Shown here: positions 45,280-53,520 of the stretch, one piece after another
How the letters are laid out: each line of letters starts with the position of its first letter
How positions within the stretch are numbered: the stretch's first letter is position 1
DNA from: Paenibacillus sp. FSL R7-0204
GTDB taxonomy: Bacteria > Bacillota > Bacilli > Paenibacillales > Paenibacillaceae
Length of the DNA stretch: 64,000 nt
NCBI RefSeq assembly: GCF_038002225.1
Contig: NZ_JBBOCA010000001.1
Location: 4,402,001 to 4,466,000 of the forward strand
Direction of reading: 5' to 3'
The notes under the pieces: model-generated
The model's database searches: none
What the model saw: only the letters and a program-made list of their open reading frames with translations
What the model was told of the DNA's origin: nothing
Translations under genes and position numbers: made by a program

Positions 45280-46521
45280 TTACCGCGTCATCCCCAGCCG
45301 CTTCGCCAATTCACCCAGCTCCTGGCCCTTCAGCGCCCCTTCCACCAGGACAGGCAACAGTGCCGGAGTACAGGCGAAGCAAGGCGTTCCATCACGGGCG
45401 AGCTGAGCGGCCAGCCGTTCATCATAGGAAGGCTTACCCTCATCGGAGAGGGCCAGCAGCGTCATCGTCCGCACCCCGGATTCCCGCAGCTCGCGCATCC
45501 GCCGGACCAGACCGGCCTGATTGCCGTTCTCGTACAGATCCGATACGATAATGAACAGCGTCTTCTTCGGCTCCTCGATGAACTGCTCGCAATACTTCAC
45601 CGACTTATGAATATCCGTGCCGCCCCCGAGCTGGATGCCGAAGAGCATGTCAACAGGATCATTCGCACATTGCTCCGTCAAGTCTACCACCTCGGTGTCA
45701 AAAGCAACGACACGCGTGTTCAGCGCCGGGATACTGGCGAAGATCGAGCCGATCACCGACGCCCAGATCACAGAGCTGGCCATCGAGCCGCTCTGGTCAA
45801 TATCCACAATGACCGTCCATTCCTTGCTGCGGCGGGCCCGGTCGAAATAGAAGAAGCGCTCGGGGATAATCATCCGCCGCTCTGCATCGTAGTGCTTCAG
45901 GTTGCGCTCAATCGTCCGTTTCCAGTCCAGCCCGCTGAGTGAAGGCAGCGGGGAATGCTGCCGCTTGTTGAGTGCACCGGTGACCGCACGGCGGATGTCG
46001 GTCTCCAGCAGCTTGACCAGCTCATCCACAAGCGCCTGGACGAGCATTCTTGCGGTATCTTTGGTTTTCTCCGGGATTTTGCCCTTGAGTGCCAGCAGCG
46101 TACCGACCAGCTGAATATCCGGCTTCACTGCCGCCAGCAGCTCCGGCTCGAAGAGCAGCTGCTTCCAGCCCTTGCGCTCCATCGCATCGGTCTGAATAAC
46201 CGAGACTACATCCTCCGGGAAGAAATTCCGCACATCCCCGAGCCATTTGGACAGGTTAATCGCAGCATGTCCCGAGCCTGCACCTCTGCCCTTCGAAGCG
46301 GCAGCGGCACTCCCTTCTGCCTTACCTGCGCCTGTCTCATTATAGATAGCAGCCAGCGCTGCATCCATAATCAGCTCTTCCTCGCTTAAGCTCCGGCCGC
46401 TGCCTGAGCCGAAGCCGGGCAAGGCTTCTTCCGCTTCCTGCCCCAGAATCAGCCGCCAGCGTGTAAGGGCGCTGTTCTGGTTATCCTCCTGTAACTCTTC
46501 CTTCAGCTCTTCTTCACCCAT
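45280..46521 (-). CDS. VWA-domain protein of a MoxR-type operon (YehP-like)
   Basis: 413 residues. Residues 1-215 are helical with a Gly/Ala/Ser-rich linker near 70-85. Residues 230-400 are a von Willebrand A domain with a complete metal-binding MIDAS site: VDIDQSGSMASSVIW near 237, LGGGTDIHKSVKY near 298 and LFIIVSDLYENGN near 322. VWA proteins paired with MoxR ATPases are thought to act as the client-binding or chelatase-like partner. The start follows the stop of the DUF5682 gene without a gap, so translation is coupled. It is the last gene of the five-gene operon; no obvious terminator follows. The layout resembles E. coli YehP. Confidence 0.9.
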   Translation of the reverse strand: MGEEELKEELQEDNQNSALTRWRLILGQEAEEALPGFGSGSGRSLSEEELIMDAALAAIYNETGAGKAEGSAAAASKGRGAGSGHAAINLSKWLGDVRNFFPEDVVSVIQTDAMERKGWKQLLFEPELLAAVKPDIQLVGTLLALKGKIPEKTKDTARMLVQALVDELVKLLETDIRRAVTGALNKRQHSPLPSLSGLDWKRTIERNLKHYDAERRMIIPERFFYFDRARRSKEWTVIVDIDQSGSMASSVIWASVIGSIFASIPALNTRVVAFDTEVVDLTEQCANDPVDMLFGIQLGGGTDIHKSVKYCEQFIEEPKKTLFIIVSDLYENGNQAGLVRRMRELRESGVRTMTLLALSDEGKPSYDERLAAQLARDGTPCFACTPALLPVLVEGALKGQELGELAKRLGMTR

Positions 46522-48867
46522 CTACAGGTCCCCGAAGTCAAAATCATTCAGATCATCCAGCATTTTGGCTTCCTCCTCCTTCAGTTCTCCTGTCAGAATC
46601 TCGGCGGCTTGCTCTGTGTTCACGCCCCACAGCTCACCCAGCAGCTCGGCGATCATCGTCTTCTCACGCGGGGAGAAGGTACTGAACGCCCGGCGCAGGA
46701 AGACCAGCGCACGCTTGAACTCCTCATCCTCCAAGGCGTTGATATAGTCATTCAGCTGCTCCCACAGGCTCATCCGCGACAGCAGTCCATAGCGGTTACG
46801 CATGGACAGGCCTTCGAACCAGCCTGCCCCAAGGTCTGCCGGTATCCCTGGGGACAAGCGGCGCGACACCTCTGCCGCAACCTCTCCGGCGGGGATGGCT
46901 CCACGCTCCATCAGGATCGCGCAGGCGAAGCCCGACAGCCGCGGGTTGCGGTCATCCCGCTGCGCCAGCTGCAGCAGCTCCTGCAGCCACAGAGCCGTAT
47001 CCGCAATCTCGCTATGCTCCTGCGAGATGTTGTTCAGGTCATTCATTGCGCCGATCATCAGCGCCGCCGCTTCATCATTACAGCCGCTGGCATCCAGCAG
47101 GAACAGGCAGCCCCGGCGGAACAGCTCCTCCAGCAGCGGTACGAACGGGGCCGTATCCACCTTGCGGATGTCGCCGTATCCGATGATCTTGGCCAGTTCC
47201 CTTGCAGCCGTGGCAATCGAGACAACATCCCGGCTGTCTACCGCAAGGCGCTGCAGCACGCGGCTGCTCTCCTCCATCTGCGTGGTCATGGCACATTCGC
47301 AGGCGGTGACAATCAGCGCAGAGGCCTCAGCGATAGAGCTGCATTCCAGCAGCTTCTCGCGCAGAACGTAGGCTGCCGCCACCTCAATGGTCTCGCCCAG
47401 CAGTGTAGACTCCACGATCTCAATCTCTACCTCCGGCGCCCACTGGAGGACCCAGTGCTCTGCCCAGGTCGCCCCGGACTGGCCGCTCGGCACATTCCGG
47501 GCGAAGTGGATGCCGAGCAGCTCCAGCCGGTGGAACAGCACCGAGCGGTGCAGATCGAGATAAGCCGCTTCACTGCTTGACACCCGGCGGTTCTCGCGCA
47601 GATCCAGCGTCAGGTCGCTGGCTACAGTCGATCTGTACTTCTCCAGCTTGTAGCGCTTCAGCAGCCGGTTCAGGTCATCCTGAATCGGCGTCTGGCTGAC
47701 GCCATCGGCCAGCCTTCCGATATTCGTACCGACATCCACCCGGGCCAGCGAATCGGCGATAACGGCCAGATCACCGTGGCCGAGCAAGGTCTGTGCGGCA
47801 TCGCGCAGATCGCGCAGCGTAGGTGCGCTTCCACCGTGCAGCGCCGCCAGCGACTCTGCCAGCCGCACCGCTTCAATGACTTCGGCCGTGGAGCGGTGTG
47901 TCCCTGCTCTGCGCACCATCCGGGCCACAGAGGAGAGATAGAGATGGGGCAGCTCCTCAGCGCGGCCTGAGGCCATCAGCTCCCACATCATCTGGAAGTA
48001 GTGCGGAGCCGCGTTGCCCGCACCGTAACCCGACATGGTGGAGAGCTTATAGTAGGAATACGGCATCAGCGTCAGCTTGGTAGAGCGTGAAGGCAATGAC
48101 GCAAGCTCCGTATCGCTCATCCCCTCCGAGAGATCAGCCAGTGCGGCGGCGTGGTATGCACCGCAGATCACAACAATCTTCTCCGGCAGATGCCCTTCTT
48201 CAATCTTGAGCTTAATTCTCCGCCTCATATAAGATTCGCGCAACGCGTTATAAGCATATTCCCGCGGCTGCTCTGCACGCTCCGTGGACTCCGACAGCTC
48301 CCGCATCTGGGCAGAGAAGGCCAGAATCGCGGCGCGGTATGCGCCGCCGCTGGCGTTATGCTCGTAATTACGCTCCCAGTACATATCATAGTCATGCTCA
48401 CCGGCAAGCCGGGCAATCCGGCTGTATACGGACTCCGGCTCACTGACTTCCTCTTCCGCCGGCTCCCCCTGTTCTTCAGCTACAGGCTTCAGCTCCGGGC
48501 GTCCGCCAGCATCCTGCCGTAAAGCATCCTGCAGCCCCAGCGTTACAGAGGAAGGCAGGTCGATGAACTCGGCCTGTGCTCCATGCTCCTGAGCCCATTT
48601 CATCCCCTGATATTCCGGGGAATACACAGCGAACGGCCAGAGCACCGTCCGTACGGGCAGATCCTCGGTGAAGGCCAGAATAGCCACCGGCGGCTTCGTT
48701 ACCGCGTGGGTTAAATGACGGATCTCTCCGCTTGCATCGCTCGGCCCCTCAATCAGCACGGCGGTCGGCTGCAGTTCGTTCAAATATTCCAGGACATGCC
48801 TGGCACCGCCCGGAGACAGATGCCGGACTCCGAAGACATGAACGCCGGCAACCGCTGCCCTGCTCAC
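46522..48867 (-). CDS. DUF5682-family protein of a MoxR-type operon (YehM-like)
   Basis: 781 residues. The N-terminal 250 residues contain three spaced motifs: VFGVRHLSPGGARHVLE near residue 12, TAVLIEGPSDASGEIRHL near 35, and IVVICGAYHAAALADLSEG near 230. A Gly-x-x-His start, a buried Glu-Gly and a Gly-x-x-His near the end recall the EreA/TraB/Tiki/ChaN superfamily of membrane-independent hydrolases, so an enzymatic N-terminal domain is possible. The remaining 500 residues are helical, with repeats of the ARM/HEAT kind (VVSIATAARELAKIIGYGDI). It starts with GTG inside the MoxR gene stop (GTGA overlap) with AAGGAG eight bases upstream. The family name is firm; the enzymatic idea is inference. 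Confidence 0.88.
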   Translation of the reverse strand: MSRAAVAGVHVFGVRHLSPGGARHVLEYLNELQPTAVLIEGPSDASGEIRHLTHAVTKPPVAILAFTEDLPVRTVLWPFAVYSPEYQGMKWAQEHGAQAEFIDLPSSVTLGLQDALRQDAGGRPELKPVAEEQGEPAEEEVSEPESVYSRIARLAGEHDYDMYWERNYEHNASGGAYRAAILAFSAQMRELSESTERAEQPREYAYNALRESYMRRRIKLKIEEGHLPEKIVVICGAYHAAALADLSEGMSDTELASLPSRSTKLTLMPYSYYKLSTMSGYGAGNAAPHYFQMMWELMASGRAEELPHLYLSSVARMVRRAGTHRSTAEVIEAVRLAESLAALHGGSAPTLRDLRDAAQTLLGHGDLAVIADSLARVDVGTNIGRLADGVSQTPIQDDLNRLLKRYKLEKYRSTVASDLTLDLRENRRVSSSEAAYLDLHRSVLFHRLELLGIHFARNVPSGQSGATWAEHWVLQWAPEVEIEIVESTLLGETIEVAAAYVLREKLLECSSIAEASALIVTACECAMTTQMEESSRVLQRLAVDSRDVVSIATAARELAKIIGYGDIRKVDTAPFVPLLEELFRRGCLFLLDASGCNDEAAALMIGAMNDLNNISQEHSEIADTALWLQELLQLAQRDDRNPRLSGFACAILMERGAIPAGEVAAEVSRRLSPGIPADLGAGWFEGLSMRNRYGLLSRMSLWEQLNDYINALEDEEFKRALVFLRRAFSTFSPREKTMIAELLGELWGVNTEQAAEILTGELKEEEAKMLDDLNDFDFGDL

Positions 48868-49967
48868 TCGTTCATCTCCTTGCAGGCTTGATAGAGTCCG
48901 CGCCAGTCCGCTCCTTTTTTCTTCATTACATTATCCAGATATTCCTTCCACACCAGCTTATCCTTGTCGTCATCCTTGACGATCGCCCCTTGGAGTCCCG
49001 CTGCCAGATCCTCGTCGGTCAGTTCTCCGCTCCCGAAGCTTGCCGCCAGTGCCATGCTGTTCGTCAGCAGCGAGATGGCTTCTGCTGTGGAGATTACACC
49101 GGCTGGAGTCTTGACCTTCTCCTTCTTGTCGAGGGTCATGCCGCTGCGCAGCTCGCGGAAGATGGTGACCACCTTCAGCAGCGCTTCATCCGCCGGAACA
49201 GCAGCCTGCAGCTCATACGAGGAGGCAATCTCACCCACACGCTTCTTCACAATGGACAGCTCCGTCTCAAGGTCCGATGGCGCAGGCAGCACAATGATAT
49301 TGAAGCGCCGTTTCAGAGCAGCAGACATCTCATTGACTCCGCGGTCCCGCGTATTAGCGGTGGCTATAATGGAAAAGCCCTTGCGGGCACTGGTCTCCTT
49401 ACCCAGCTCCGGCACGGAGATCGTCTTCTCTGACAGAATCGAGATCAGCGCGTCCTGTACCTCGGAGGCACAGCGGGAGATTTCTTCAAACCGGGCAATT
49501 CCTCCATCCTCCATCGCCCGCATAATCGGGCTCTTGACCAGCGCCTCCGGCGTCGGTCCGTTCGCCAGGAGCATGGCGTAGTTCCAGGAATAGCGCACAT
49601 GCTCTTCGCTTGTTCCCGCCGTCCCCTGCACCACCATACCTGAGTTGCCGTAGATCGCCGCTGCCAGATTCTCGGACAGCCAGGATTTCGCCGTACCCGG
49701 CTCCCCGATCAGCAGCAGTGCACGGTCGGTGACCAGTGTGGCAACCGCCATCTCGATCAGCCGGGTGTTGCCGATGTATTTCGGCGTAATCACGGTCTTG
49801 CCCGCCTTGCCGCCAGTAATGAACGTGAGAACTGAACGCGGGGACATCTGCCATCCGGCCGGAATACGCCCGGTGTCCTCCTTGCGCAGAGCCTCCAGCT
49901 CATCCTGGTACAGGATTTCGGCAGGCAGACGCATGTAATCCTGAAGCTGATCTTGTTCTGTTGACAT
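48864..49967 (-). CDS. MoxR-type AAA+ ATPase (YehL-like)
   Basis: 367 residues. Walker A is LIGEPGTAKSWLSENLA near residue 90, Walker B is GIARFEEISRCASEVQDAL near 155, sensor 1 is IIATANTRDRGVNEMS near 200, and the arginine-finger region is ALKRRFNIIVLPAP near 217. The C-terminal lid continues to the end. MoxR ATPases work as hexamers that remodel or load cofactors into client proteins, usually together with a VWA protein. AAGGAG lies eight bases before the ATG at 49967. It follows the HEAT gene by about 60 bases and overlaps the DUF5682 gene by four. The family is sure; the clients are unknown. Confidence 0.92.
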   Translation of the reverse strand: MSTEQDQLQDYMRLPAEILYQDELEALRKEDTGRIPAGWQMSPRSVLTFITGGKAGKTVITPKYIGNTRLIEMAVATLVTDRALLLIGEPGTAKSWLSENLAAAIYGNSGMVVQGTAGTSEEHVRYSWNYAMLLANGPTPEALVKSPIMRAMEDGGIARFEEISRCASEVQDALISILSEKTISVPELGKETSARKGFSIIATANTRDRGVNEMSAALKRRFNIIVLPAPSDLETELSIVKKRVGEIASSYELQAAVPADEALLKVVTIFRELRSGMTLDKKEKVKTPAGVISTAEAISLLTNSMALAASFGSGELTDEDLAAGLQGAIVKDDDKDKLVWKEYLDNVMKKKGADWRGLYQACKEMNE

Positions 49968-50026
49968 GTACACCTCTCCTTAGTTACAGCATTGTAGTGA
50001 AAAGATAAGTCCAGATGGCTCAGGTA

Positions 50027-51874
50027 TTAGTTGGCACTCCGCAGGCTGTTCAGTACATATTCCAGCTGCTGCTTACATTCATATCTATATTTAGGAATGA
50101 CCGCTTCCAGCCGGTCCGCATAGCTGGCAGGGAAGCGCTCCATCAATTTAAATAAATAGAACTCAAACGTATAAGGCGTATGGACATTCTTATTCTCCAA
50201 GGCGGTCATCAGCAGTTCCAAGCGCTCCGACTCCGGCACTCCCGCCCTTTCAAGGCCTTTGAAGAGATTAGGAATGAAATCATAAGTTTTTCGTTTATAA
50301 GGCTCCTGCAGCTTGCCAAGCAGGTAGTCCTGTACCCCCTGATGACCCGGGCGTGCAAAGGCACTGGCCAAATTCACCGCGTCACGCTTGATGAACCAAT
50401 CCAGCCAGCGGGGATCCCAATCTGCGGCAATTTCTTCGGCAGACAGCAACTCCCTGCTGTAAGGCTGTCTGATTCCTGATGCGTCCCACTCTACCTCGTA
50501 AGTCCCCCGGCGGATATCCACGACCTGCTCCTCAATCGTATCAATCAACAATTGCGAGCGTTGAGCCGCATCCTTGGCCTCCTTACCCACCAATATTTTC
50601 AATTTATCCATGAAACTTCCGCCGAACCGGTTGTACAGCTCTTTTGGACTGAGTGACTGCTTGGCGACACGGAAATAGTTCGGCAGGAACCTTGCGCTCC
50701 GTTTATCCAGCTCTTCAAGCTCAGCCAGCGCAGCTCCATCCGGAGTTCTCTCTTTATACCAGGCCGCACGGTCAATGAGTGGAATCCAGCCCAGAGACGA
50801 GAAGCGTGCATACTCCTTAAGGATATAGCTGTAGATTTCATCCAGCTGCGGGCTCCGCACGTAGCGCAGCGCGGTCATGTAGGGAAGAAGCTCATTCCAC
50901 ATCTTGTCGGTCAGCTTCTTGTCTGCATTCGTCTGCGGCGCAGCCTGCAGCTCCTCCATAAATAATACCGCCAGCCTGTCGCTTACCTCTGCGGAATGCC
51001 CGCCTGCCAGCACTGCGGCTAACATCTCACGGTCCTTCTTCTGGCTGAACACCTCAATGAGCCGCTCTGCTCCCTCTGCCGATCCACCTGCTGCCAATGC
51101 TGTGTAGGCAGCTTCACGGATGATTTTCTTCTTGTCAGCAGACCACCCCAGCAGGAGTCCTGTATATTCCTCATACTCTCCCAGACACTTGATGGCGGCT
51201 GCCCGGATCTCATCGCTGCCGTTCTCGGCTGATTGAACAATAACGTCCAGGTGACTGGAAGCGCCTGCTTGAGCAATGACCTCCAGCTTGCGGACCTCGC
51301 TCCGTCCCCCTGCCGGGTTGAAGGTCTCCAGCAGGTATCCGGCGATCTCGGGCCCATAAGAAGGGAGAATATGGTTCTTCGCATATTCCGCCAGCTCCGA
51401 ATACGGGTCGTTCAGTGCAGAGACAGCCAGCGGCAGCAGACGCAGATCCTCAAAGACTCCTTCTTTATAGGCGTCCAGTACAATCTCATATCTGCCGCTT
51501 CCGGTAGTGGTGAGCGCTTCAAGCACAGGCGCAAGCTTCCGGTAAGTCTGATTCGTCTGCAGGGTGAACTTCCGAACCGGCAAGGGTCCGGTAGTTCCAT
51601 CCACGGTTGTCGTTCCCTGAGTGTACAGAACAGACTCCAGCAGCAGAGTATTCTCCTGCAATTGAATGCCCGGGGCAGGACCGTCCGGGCTCCCCGGTTC
51701 AATCAGTGCCGTGATTCCCTCGCCTAGCTTCTTAAAGACCGGTGACCGCTCGCCTAGCTGCTGAAATTGCGGAAGCAGCCGCTTCAGGCGGAAATCTCCA
51801 GCCGCCAGCTCACTTCCGGCAATATACAGTCTTCTGTATTCCTGATGCAGCTCCTGCAATAACGCTGTGCTCAT
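50027..51874 (-). CDS. HEAT-repeat protein of the MoxR-type operon
   Basis: 615 residues, almost entirely helical. Residues 150-330 contain HEAT-like pairs of helices: VRKLEVIAQAGASSHLDVIV, EIRAAAIKCLGEYEEYTGLLL, IIREAAYTALAAGGSAEGAERL and REMLAAVLAGGHSAEVSDRLA. The N-terminal 140 residues look like a separate helical domain with GxxGPLPVRKFTL. The C-terminal part has WDPRWLDWFIKRDAVNLA and further helical repeats. No enzymatic motif is visible, so it probably serves as a scaffold or substrate adaptor for the ATPase. The ATG at 51874 has GGAGG seven bases upstream. Not present in the E. coli set as far as I know; DUF4132-type proteins there may fill this place. Confidence 0.85.
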   Translation of the reverse strand: MSTALLQELHQEYRRLYIAGSELAAGDFRLKRLLPQFQQLGERSPVFKKLGEGITALIEPGSPDGPAPGIQLQENTLLLESVLYTQGTTTVDGTTGPLPVRKFTLQTNQTYRKLAPVLEALTTTGSGRYEIVLDAYKEGVFEDLRLLPLAVSALNDPYSELAEYAKNHILPSYGPEIAGYLLETFNPAGGRSEVRKLEVIAQAGASSHLDVIVQSAENGSDEIRAAAIKCLGEYEEYTGLLLGWSADKKKIIREAAYTALAAGGSAEGAERLIEVFSQKKDREMLAAVLAGGHSAEVSDRLAVLFMEELQAAPQTNADKKLTDKMWNELLPYMTALRYVRSPQLDEIYSYILKEYARFSSLGWIPLIDRAAWYKERTPDGAALAELEELDKRSARFLPNYFRVAKQSLSPKELYNRFGGSFMDKLKILVGKEAKDAAQRSQLLIDTIEEQVVDIRRGTYEVEWDASGIRQPYSRELLSAEEIAADWDPRWLDWFIKRDAVNLASAFARPGHQGVQDYLLGKLQEPYKRKTYDFIPNLFKGLERAGVPESERLELLMTALENKNVHTPYTFEFYLFKLMERFPASYADRLEAVIPKYRYECKQQLEYVLNSLRSAN

Positions 51875-51923
51875 GGATTGTCCTCCCATTTGAATAAAGG
51901 TTTGTGGATAATGTTGAATTGCA

Positions 51924-53369
51924 CTAGTACAGCAGACGAATGATCTCTTCGCCCTTAACGACAGTCAGCGGCTGGGCACGCAGACGTCCCTGGTCCAGGT
52001 CATGCTCGAACATGACCAGAACTGTACAGTCCTCGCGGGCGCCGGCCGGAAGGAACGGCAGCAGCTCTACCGTGCCTTGCGCAACTGACGGAATATCCTC
52101 CAGGAGCAGCCTTGTTCCTTCCCCGTCCGTCATAACATACTGGCCGTTCTCTGTAACGCCCAGAGCTGCGGCATGCAGCAGCATGACCGGCTGCTTGTCG
52201 CTCAGCGGGTTCTTGATCTGATTCTTCACCTTCTTGAAGACCTCCGAATATGAACGGTGAGCCTTGGCGGCCGCCCGCTCTAGATCCGTGCCTTGCACCG
52301 GTCTTGAAGACATGGACTCGTATCTAATCCGGGCATTCATATCCCCGGGATAGGTGTACAGCTGTGGAACCACGGCAATGTCGAAGAAGCTGTCTTCCTC
52401 GCGCATCAGCTTCGCCGCCTTGTAAGGGCGGTAGTTAAAGGTCCGGCGGATCTCCCCGCCTTCCGCAGAGAGATCCAGCCAAAAGCCAAGGTCTACGAAC
52501 TCCTGGCGGGCCCCATCGTTGTAGCTGTAGAAGGATAACTGCAGCAGCTCTGCCCCCTCTTTCACCAGCCCGTATTCCTTCAGCTCGCTAAGCTGCCAGG
52601 CATGGCCCAGCCATTCATCAATCGTGGATTCGTGATCGAGCGCCAGCTCCGGGTCCTCGCTCCGGGCCAGCAGATACGTCCGGCCCTTCTTGATAAATGC
52701 GTGTAGCCGTGTCAGCTGCTCCACCGCATATGTATAGTTCTGCTCCTGATCCTTGCCGCTGAACATCAGATTCGCGAAGCGGCGCAGCTCAATCTGGGCA
52801 CCGGACAAATAATAGTTCCCGAGCTGCTTCACATGCCCCTGAAGCGTCTTGGCCGCAGACTTGTCAATCGTGGAAAGGCCGCTGCGTACGAAGGAGAGCA
52901 CCAGCTTTTCCAGCAGATCAAGCCCTTCGAGCTGCGCGTTGATTTTTTTCTTCAGGGCGGATTTGTTAACCTTCTTCGGCTTGGGATCTGCTCCTTCAGC
53001 CGCCTGCTTCACCTTGTTCTCTTCCCGCTTCTCCGCCTTCTCGCGCTTCGATGCGATGTCTTCGGGAACCGGAGCAGGTGTGAACGTCTGGCCTTCGGTA
53101 AAGGCATACAGCAGACCTAGTGCGTGCTTGCAGGGGAATTGGCGGCTGGGGCAGCTGCAGCGGAAGACCGGGCTGTCTGGTACGATGAAGTCCACTGAGC
53201 ACTCATAGGGCGTTTTGCCGCTTCCGGCACATTTTCCGAATAATAGCTCTCCGTTCTCCGACTGATGGAGCTCCACAAAGCTCTTTTTGCGGACCAGCCC
53301 CTGGCCGTTCTTGATCGCAGCAGCATTGGGTGCAAGTGAATCGACGTACGTGGATGTTAGCTCTGGCAA
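51924..53369 (-). CDS. SWIM zinc-finger protein of the MoxR-type operon (YehQ-like)
   Basis: 481 residues. The SWIM motif CxCxnCxH is complete: FRCSCPSRQFPCKHALGLL near residues 68-86, preceded by the usual GSGKTPYECSVDF strand region. SWIM domains bind zinc and contact DNA or protein. Residues 100-150 are a charged Lys/Glu-rich linker. The rest is helical, then strand-rich (RRTFNYRPYKAAKLMREEDSFF), ending in a small beta domain with LLLEDIPSVAQGTVELLPFLP. It starts with TTG after GGGAGG, eight bases upstream. It is the first gene after the promoter at 53492-53520, so it heads the operon. Confidence 0.9.
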   Translation of the reverse strand: MPELTSTYVDSLAPNAAAIKNGQGLVRKKSFVELHQSENGELLFGKCAGSGKTPYECSVDFIVPDSPVFRCSCPSRQFPCKHALGLLYAFTEGQTFTPAPVPEDIASKREKAEKREENKVKQAAEGADPKPKKVNKSALKKKINAQLEGLDLLEKLVLSFVRSGLSTIDKSAAKTLQGHVKQLGNYYLSGAQIELRRFANLMFSGKDQEQNYTYAVEQLTRLHAFIKKGRTYLLARSEDPELALDHESTIDEWLGHAWQLSELKEYGLVKEGAELLQLSFYSYNDGARQEFVDLGFWLDLSAEGGEIRRTFNYRPYKAAKLMREEDSFFDIAVVPQLYTYPGDMNARIRYESMSSRPVQGTDLERAAAKAHRSYSEVFKKVKNQIKNPLSDKQPVMLLHAAALGVTENGQYVMTDGEGTRLLLEDIPSVAQGTVELLPFLPAGAREDCTVLVMFEHDLDQGRLRAQPLTVVKGEEIIRLLY

Positions 53370-53491
53370 ATTAGATTCCTCCCGGCTGAATTAGGATGTA
53401 AGCAGAATGAATAATCGTGCATATAGGGCACAAGTATTTATTACCCAACTTCACATGAAACGACTACAAATAGGATCATATGTTTGCATTC

Positions 53492-53520
53492 ATTTTAGCA
53501 AATCTTAGCGTCCGATCCAA
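53492..53520 (-). promoter_or_regulatory. Sigma-A promoter of the SWIM-HEAT-MoxR-DUF5682-VWA operon
   Basis: On the minus strand TTGGAT (53515-53520) and TAAAAT (53492-53497) are separated by exactly 17 bases. It is the only good promoter upstream of the five genes and points to constitutive, vegetative expression unless a regulator binds nearby. Confidence 0.7.

Follow-up and report, generated by a model that had tools for sequence, protein, structure and literature searches.

What do five consecutive genes that encode a SWIM zinc-finger protein, a HEAT-repeat protein, a MoxR-type AAA+ ATPase, a DUF5682 protein and a VWA protein accomplish together? The genes are found in a 64,000-nucleotide stretch of the soil bacterium Paenibacillus sp. 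FSL R7-0204 (contig NZ_JBBOCA010000001.1), referred to here as the window, where they follow each other in the order SWIM, HEAT, MoxR, DUF5682, VWA on the minus strand from position 53369 down to 45280. A preliminary description of this DNA had placed five such genes here, and a Pfam domain search of the five proteins confirms all of the families. The reading preferred here, to which we assign a probability of about 0.4, is that MoxR and VWA form a machine that controls a predicted Tiki-type hydrolase, DUF5682, acting on clients delivered by the SWIM/OB-fold and HEAT subunits. Its setting is perhaps stress or DNA damage.

Conservation of the five genes

The genus was sampled with 100 genomes, the window's own genome included. 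The DUF5682 gene is present in 70 of them and the HEAT protein in 67. All 67 HEAT-bearing genomes also carry DUF5682, and in 66 of these the two genes are adjacent on one strand with a spacing of 1194-1774 bases, which leaves room for MoxR between them. In the exception (G319) the assembly is fragmented and the genes lie on separate contigs; three genomes (G340, G348, G358) have DUF5682 without HEAT. In 20 loci selected and fetched from the 67 genomes with both genes, the window order is complete in every case. Across the phylum few genomes have DUF5682 (8 of 299, five above the cut-off, two of those five belonging to the genus).

Scanning genome contigs yielded 473 relatives, and the 80 best were kept and analysed; this set is unbalanced and skewed towards a type containing DUF4132 because of the query used. 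Judged by record titles, 33 of these 80 belong to Paenibacillus, Saccharibacillus, Brevibacillus or other Paenibacillaceae, and six to Lentzea. The other relatives come from Clostridium, Ruminococcus and other Bacillota, Bacteroidota, Planctomycetota, Verrucomicrobiota, Pseudomonadota, Actinomycetota, Chloroflexota, cyanobacterial sources and Polyangiaceae, and altogether about nine phyla are spanned. In those of the wider loci that have enough flank for each count, DUF5682 is adjoined by MoxR in 76/79 and by VWA in 72/74, SWIM is nearby in 65/69, and a DUF4132-family protein is present in 59/65; MoxR, DUF5682, VWA, SWIM and a large DUF4132 protein are clustered together in 56/65. The identity of DUF4132 was confirmed by Pfam in all six proteins examined, two of which have an N-terminal WGR domain. 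Most of the wider loci read MoxR-DUF5682-VWA-SWIM; DUF4132 precedes MoxR, sits between VWA and SWIM, or follows SWIM. The five genes are thus a conserved system, and their co-occurrence is far beyond chance. A survey of other genomes had been suggested in the preliminary description, and the conserved neighbourhood whose absence would have spoken against its reading is found in the genus and, in a kindred form, in the wider loci.

One such cluster is that of E. coli, where the MoxR, DUF5682, VWA and SWIM families occur together in yehI-yehK-yehLMPQ. The assignment of yehL, yehM, yehP and yehQ to the AAA+, DUF5682, VWA and SWIM members, made in the preliminary description, agrees with annotation, profile matches and, for YehM and YehQ, with Pfam. 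YehL is a named MoxR subfamily (PMC3893208). The E. coli cluster differs from the window in its order, MoxR-DUF5682-VWA-SWIM, in having the DUF4132 protein YehI upstream, and in having no HEAT protein of the window type.

That HEAT family is found in none of the 80 relatives, and within the genus it is the fastest-changing subunit: its median identity to the window over the 20 loci is 57.5%, compared with 77.5% for SWIM, 82% for DUF5682, 85.5% for VWA and 94.5% for MoxR, and it is the lowest of the five in all 20. In five of the 67 genomes (G339, G363, G379, G381, G382) the HEAT gene is tandemly duplicated into two full copies, which have diverged to about 61-63% and 72-79% identity with the window's HEAT. 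When aligned by hhalign with the HEAT stretch of DUF4132 proteins, the family scores 48.0 over 62 columns (best of 40 shuffles, 23.4), and with DUF5691 it scores 20.2, which is within the shuffle range. DUF5691 occupies the HEAT place on plasmids of Deinococcus taeanensis and Hymenobacter radiodurans, which have the window order with a small extra open reading frame (ORF) after MoxR; on the Hymenobacter plasmid DUF5682 is annotated in three pieces and the VWA gene is not among the listed genes. These comparisons suggest that one position is held by a HEAT-containing or other large protein in three sequence forms (HEAT, DUF4132, DUF5691). As DUF4132 is not in the window operon, the window is called a variant layout.

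The only DUF4132 match of the window's own genome lies elsewhere, at about 6.88 Mb (L091, 9557-14542), in a 1661-residue protein that combines DUF5724, DUF4132 and DUF7737 domains and is encoded next to chemotaxis-type genes. Two genomes of the genus (G314, G392) each carry one high-scoring and one lower-scoring full-length DUF5682 copy, and perhaps have both layouts of the system.

A fast-changing HEAT protein, doubled in some genomes, and the patchy presence of the genes in genus and phylum are consistent with an anti-invader (conflict) system, in which HEAT and SWIM would sense a phage or plasmid and MoxR and VWA would unleash DUF5682 as the effector. Four other MoxR-vWA systems have been proposed as conflict systems (PMC7159879), and an iSTAND type is described with peptidase effectors (PMC12839542). 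We nevertheless consider this role unlikely. A kinase and a response regulator lie within the fetched 18 kb in 18 of the 20 genus loci, and such constant neighbours indicate that the place of the locus is stable. PADLOC matches are weak and partial (mad8, 3.3e-4; HEAT-ARM_XIII, 4.4e-4). Of 36 plasmid copies, 27 are classed as non-mobilizable, although some of the records are chromosome-sized. None of 20 pattern matches in viral contigs is a relative. A separate phage record does match, but it is unverified. That record (L147, MT835988.1, 'Bacteriophage sp.') holds a DUF5682 gene 45% identical to the window's and several long same-strand ORFs, and may be a bacterial contig. On the whole we lean towards a stress or genome maintenance role rather than defence.

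Predicted domains of the subunits

In a hand-picked set of 66 diverse DUF5682 sequences, the residues R14, H15, S17, P18, E39, G40, S82, P83, E84, D102, W163, E168, R188, R209, E210, M213, G235 and H238, among others, are invariant, and E. coli YehM agrees at the motif positions. The motifs follow each other in the order xxRH, E, RExxM, GxxH, which is the order in ChaN (7 sequences aligned) and in TraB/GumN (14 sequences aligned), where the first motif is GxxH. At E 0.1 or better the Pfam ChaN profile, which Pfam labels as Tiki superfamily, matches the N-termini of six out of eight DUF5682 proteins. None of these matches reaches the curated cut-off, and the strongest has 1.3e-4 over positions 7-204 of 213; the profile has no match to E. 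coli YehM or to one other relative (L053). By hhalign the DUF5682 N-terminus scores 39.1 against ChaN (0/300 shuffles as good) and 25.9 against TraB (1/300), while ChaN against TraB scores 29.7 and reversed and unrelated profiles 12.0-15.3; the local matches of DUF5682 are confined to 30-42 columns at the last two motifs. The predicted model places H15 and H238 immediately after strands and E39 near a strand end. The match list of the structure search was filled by helical repeat proteins that match the helical half (residues 444-771), and so bears on this half rather than on the fold of the N-domain.

The Tiki motif order and a ChaN match better than all 300 shuffles make DUF5682 a predicted hydrolase, and its N-terminus is likely to be of the Tiki type. 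With the Tiki superfamily (ChaN, TraB/GumN, erythromycin esterase type) it shares the series xxRH or GxxH, E, basic-xxxM, GxxH and the profile similarity. It departs from the superfamily in the Arg that precedes the first His, in Pro frequently taking the place of the first Gly (44 of the 66 sequences), in a long helical C-terminal half and in its location in a MoxR/VWA operon. An active Tiki endopeptidase depends on two His, two Glu and one basic residue (PMC6254334); DUF5682 has no counterpart of the Glu found two residues before the first His of that enzyme.

A Tiki-like fold might also serve only to bind ligands or proteins, with MoxR and VWA remodelling clients in general stress as a non-catalytic chaperone. 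Some proteins of the Tiki superfamily are described as having no catalytic residues (PMT, PMC6254334), MoxR proteins are described as chaperone-like (PMC3893208), and a multi-stress study lists yehH and yehQ in a table of E. coli genes that are uncharacterized (PMC9501238). Both His, the Glu and the basic residue are, however, invariant in 66/66 DUF5682 sequences, which would be unusual for a domain that only binds, and we regard a non-catalytic role as quite improbable.

Two OB folds are predicted at the C-terminal end of the SWIM protein, as in nucleic-acid binders of the HIN, RPA and SSB type, and this subunit is likely to bind nucleic acid. The fold assignments as a whole, predicted from profiles and models, are well to moderately supported. 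The preliminary description named neither these OB folds nor the Tiki-type domain nor DUF4132 (YehI). In the open-licence literature no paper naming DUF5682 or DUF5691 was found, although they may be in print elsewhere. DUF4132 is named in three papers, and passages from two of these contain no test of its function; two papers mention at least two of yehL, yehM, yehP and yehQ together. The predicted Tiki-type domain of DUF5682 and the predicted SWIM OB folds appear to be new.

In MoxR the GEPGTAK motif, the RFEE stretch, sensor 1 and the arginine region are conserved. The usual Walker B reads D-E. Here the corresponding region is R-F-E-E, kept in at least 95% of 85 aligned sequences, and the earlier claim of complete Walker and sensor motifs is corrected in this point. 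MoxR also gives a partial bpMoxR match, 29.9 bits against a cut-off of 27, over residues 61-110 only. The metal ion-dependent adhesion site (MIDAS) of VWA, said to be full, is indeed so: D242, S244, S246, T302 and D328 are all present and are conserved in at least 95% of 78 sequences.

Gene layout and regulatory setting

The features of the locus are collected in Table 1. MoxR and DUF5682 overlap by 4 bases and DUF5682 and VWA abut directly, whereas gaps of 34 bases (SWIM/HEAT) and 53 bases (HEAT/MoxR) separate the other genes; two junctions, rather than the three once counted, are therefore touching or overlapping. The upstream flank contains a DesK-type kinase with its response regulator and a fatty-acid desaturase, and the downstream flank a semialdehyde dehydrogenase.

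Table 1. Genes, predicted domains and candidate upstream signals of the five-gene locus (window positions)
Feature	Position	Strand	Basis
SWIM zinc-finger protein	51924..53369	-	481 residues, TTG start; Pfam SWIM 2.1e-5; model (pLDDT 90); structure matches
Predicted tandem OB folds, SWIM protein C-terminus	about 51948-52595	-	Predicted model and structure matches
HEAT-repeat scaffold protein	50027..51889	-	620 residues; HEAT_2 8.2e-8
MoxR-type AAA+ ATPase	48864..49973	-	369 residues; AAA_5 3.6e-37
DUF5682 protein	46522..48867	-	781 residues; DUF5682 5.1e-152; model (pLDDT 86)
Predicted Tiki-type hydrolase domain of DUF5682	48058..48843	-	Residues about 9-270; H15, E39, R209, H238
Helical repeat-like C-terminal half of DUF5682	46543..47580	-	Residues about 430-775; model; helical repeat protein matches
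VWA (CoxE-type) protein	45280..46521	-	413 residues; VWA_CoxE 1.9e-48; complete MIDAS
Candidate -35 hexamer TTGGAT	53515..53520	-	Read from the sequence; within the conserved upstream stretch
Candidate -10 hexamer TAAAAT, spacer 17	53492..53497	-	Read from the sequence; conserved upstream stretch
Upstream element GCAAACATATGATCCTAT, possible operator	53470..53487	-	Near-invariant in 10 aligned loci
Shine-Dalgarno-like GGGAGG	53378..53383	-	8 bases before the SWIM TTG start; read from the sequence

The presumed promoter region is conserved among relatives in an alignment that took in 10 of the 21 loci in hand, and both hexamers vary in the most distant loci. A sigma-A promoter had been claimed for the operon. 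A consensus promoter scan has no match at the candidate promoter of the SWIM gene, but the two hexamers do lie inside the stretch that is kept in relatives. The 18-base element, which is directly downstream of the presumed -10 box, has two mismatches against the LexA box.

Regulatory sites in two other organisms point, as a lead, to a stress or DNA-damage setting. In E. coli K-12 (L002, 450-465) a match to the LexA core CTGN10CAG, CTGGATAAAATTACAG, is located 9 bases before yehF, the head of the region leading to yehI and yehLMPQ. The place of yehF/yehH is presumably that of molR. Among the genes listed as LexA-regulated is molR (PMC11039860, PMC4576408). In Deinococcus taeanensis (L145, NZ_CP083457.1, 4738-4754) a site resembling the radiation/desiccation response motif (RDRM), TTACGCCAGAAACATAA, is found 19 bases before the SWIM-DUF5691-MoxR-DUF5682-VWA operon; it has two mismatches against the palindrome searched for and three against the printed consensus. 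With that palindrome such a site is expected 0.02 times in 20 kb and occurred in 2/100 shuffles. If it is a true site, the Deinococcus system would be controlled by DdrO, the regulator of the radiation/desiccation response. The DdrO targets described for D. radiodurans include a DUF4132 gene and a WGR gene (PMC8533742).

The CTGN10CAG core occurs 12 times in 20 kb of E. coli sequence compared with 4.9 expected, and a longer LexA pattern does not list the yehF site, so that this site alone is weak. Furthermore, no LexA site was found at the window locus. DNA damage is therefore a lead and not a result.

A working model and known systems

By combining these observations it is possible to outline how the system might operate. 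We infer that the five proteins associate in one machine. The VWA protein would dock on the pore of the MoxR ring, as NorD does on NorQ, and the ATPase ring together with VWA would control the DUF5682 hydrolase, making hydrolysis ATP-gated. The SWIM/OB-fold and HEAT subunits may choose the clients and bring them to DUF5682.

A more specific version, which is doubtful, would be a damage-induced, nucleic-acid-triggered protease machine extending from E. coli to Planctomycetes. Its SWIM/OB subunit would sense damaged or foreign nucleic acid, the fast-evolving HEAT, DUF4132 or DUF5691 protein would name the client, and MoxR/VWA would feed that client to a Tiki-type protease or unlock the protease. 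If true, this would be a fifth MoxR-vWA system beside the four described.

Alternatively, DUF5682 might be a client and not a tool, with MoxR and VWA inserting a metal or cofactor into it or into another protein. The VWA protein belongs to the CoxE type, metal insertion is driven by NorQD in its own system (PMC13036017), and CoxD-CoxE is described in metal-cluster insertion (PMC7159879). Some Tiki proteins also bind metal or haem (PMC6254334; Pfam label of ChaN). Beyond the five genes, however, no metalloenzyme gene is common to the clusters. NorQD and CoxDE are not known to contain a SWIM/OB subunit or a scaffold of the HEAT or DUF4132 kind. Maturation of this kind is hence an unlikely role, and the control of a DUF5682 hydrolase by MoxR and VWA is preferred.

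No function for the yeh cluster of E. coli K-12 was found in the open-licence literature searched. With invariant residues named for a likely hydrolase domain, a subunit that probably binds nucleic acid and the lead on stress regulation, genes of unknown function over about nine phyla become a system that can be tested with a few mutants in this laboratory strain, which itself carries the cluster.

Among known systems, NorQ/NorD and CoxD/CoxE have the same pairing of a MoxR ATPase with a CoxE-type VWA partner (PMC13036017). In NorQD the VWA domain inserts a finger into the pore of MoxR, and a linker in the VWA protein is remodelled as ATP is used (PMC13036017). Unlike these pairs, the window system includes three more conserved subunits, and its cluster contains no known metalloenzyme client. 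Like the window system, the MoxR-vWA ternary conflict systems combine a core of MoxR and VWA with additional linked proteins (PMC7159879). Their third component is, however, of the VMAP, iSTAND, FtsH or beta-propeller type, and Pfam at E 0.01 detects no VMAP, iSTAND, FtsH or propeller domain in the five window proteins, with the reservation that iSTAND is a fast-changing fold that Pfam may miss. In the main text on these ternary systems (PMC7159879) the words SWIM, YehL, EreA, Tiki, TraB and WGR are absent.

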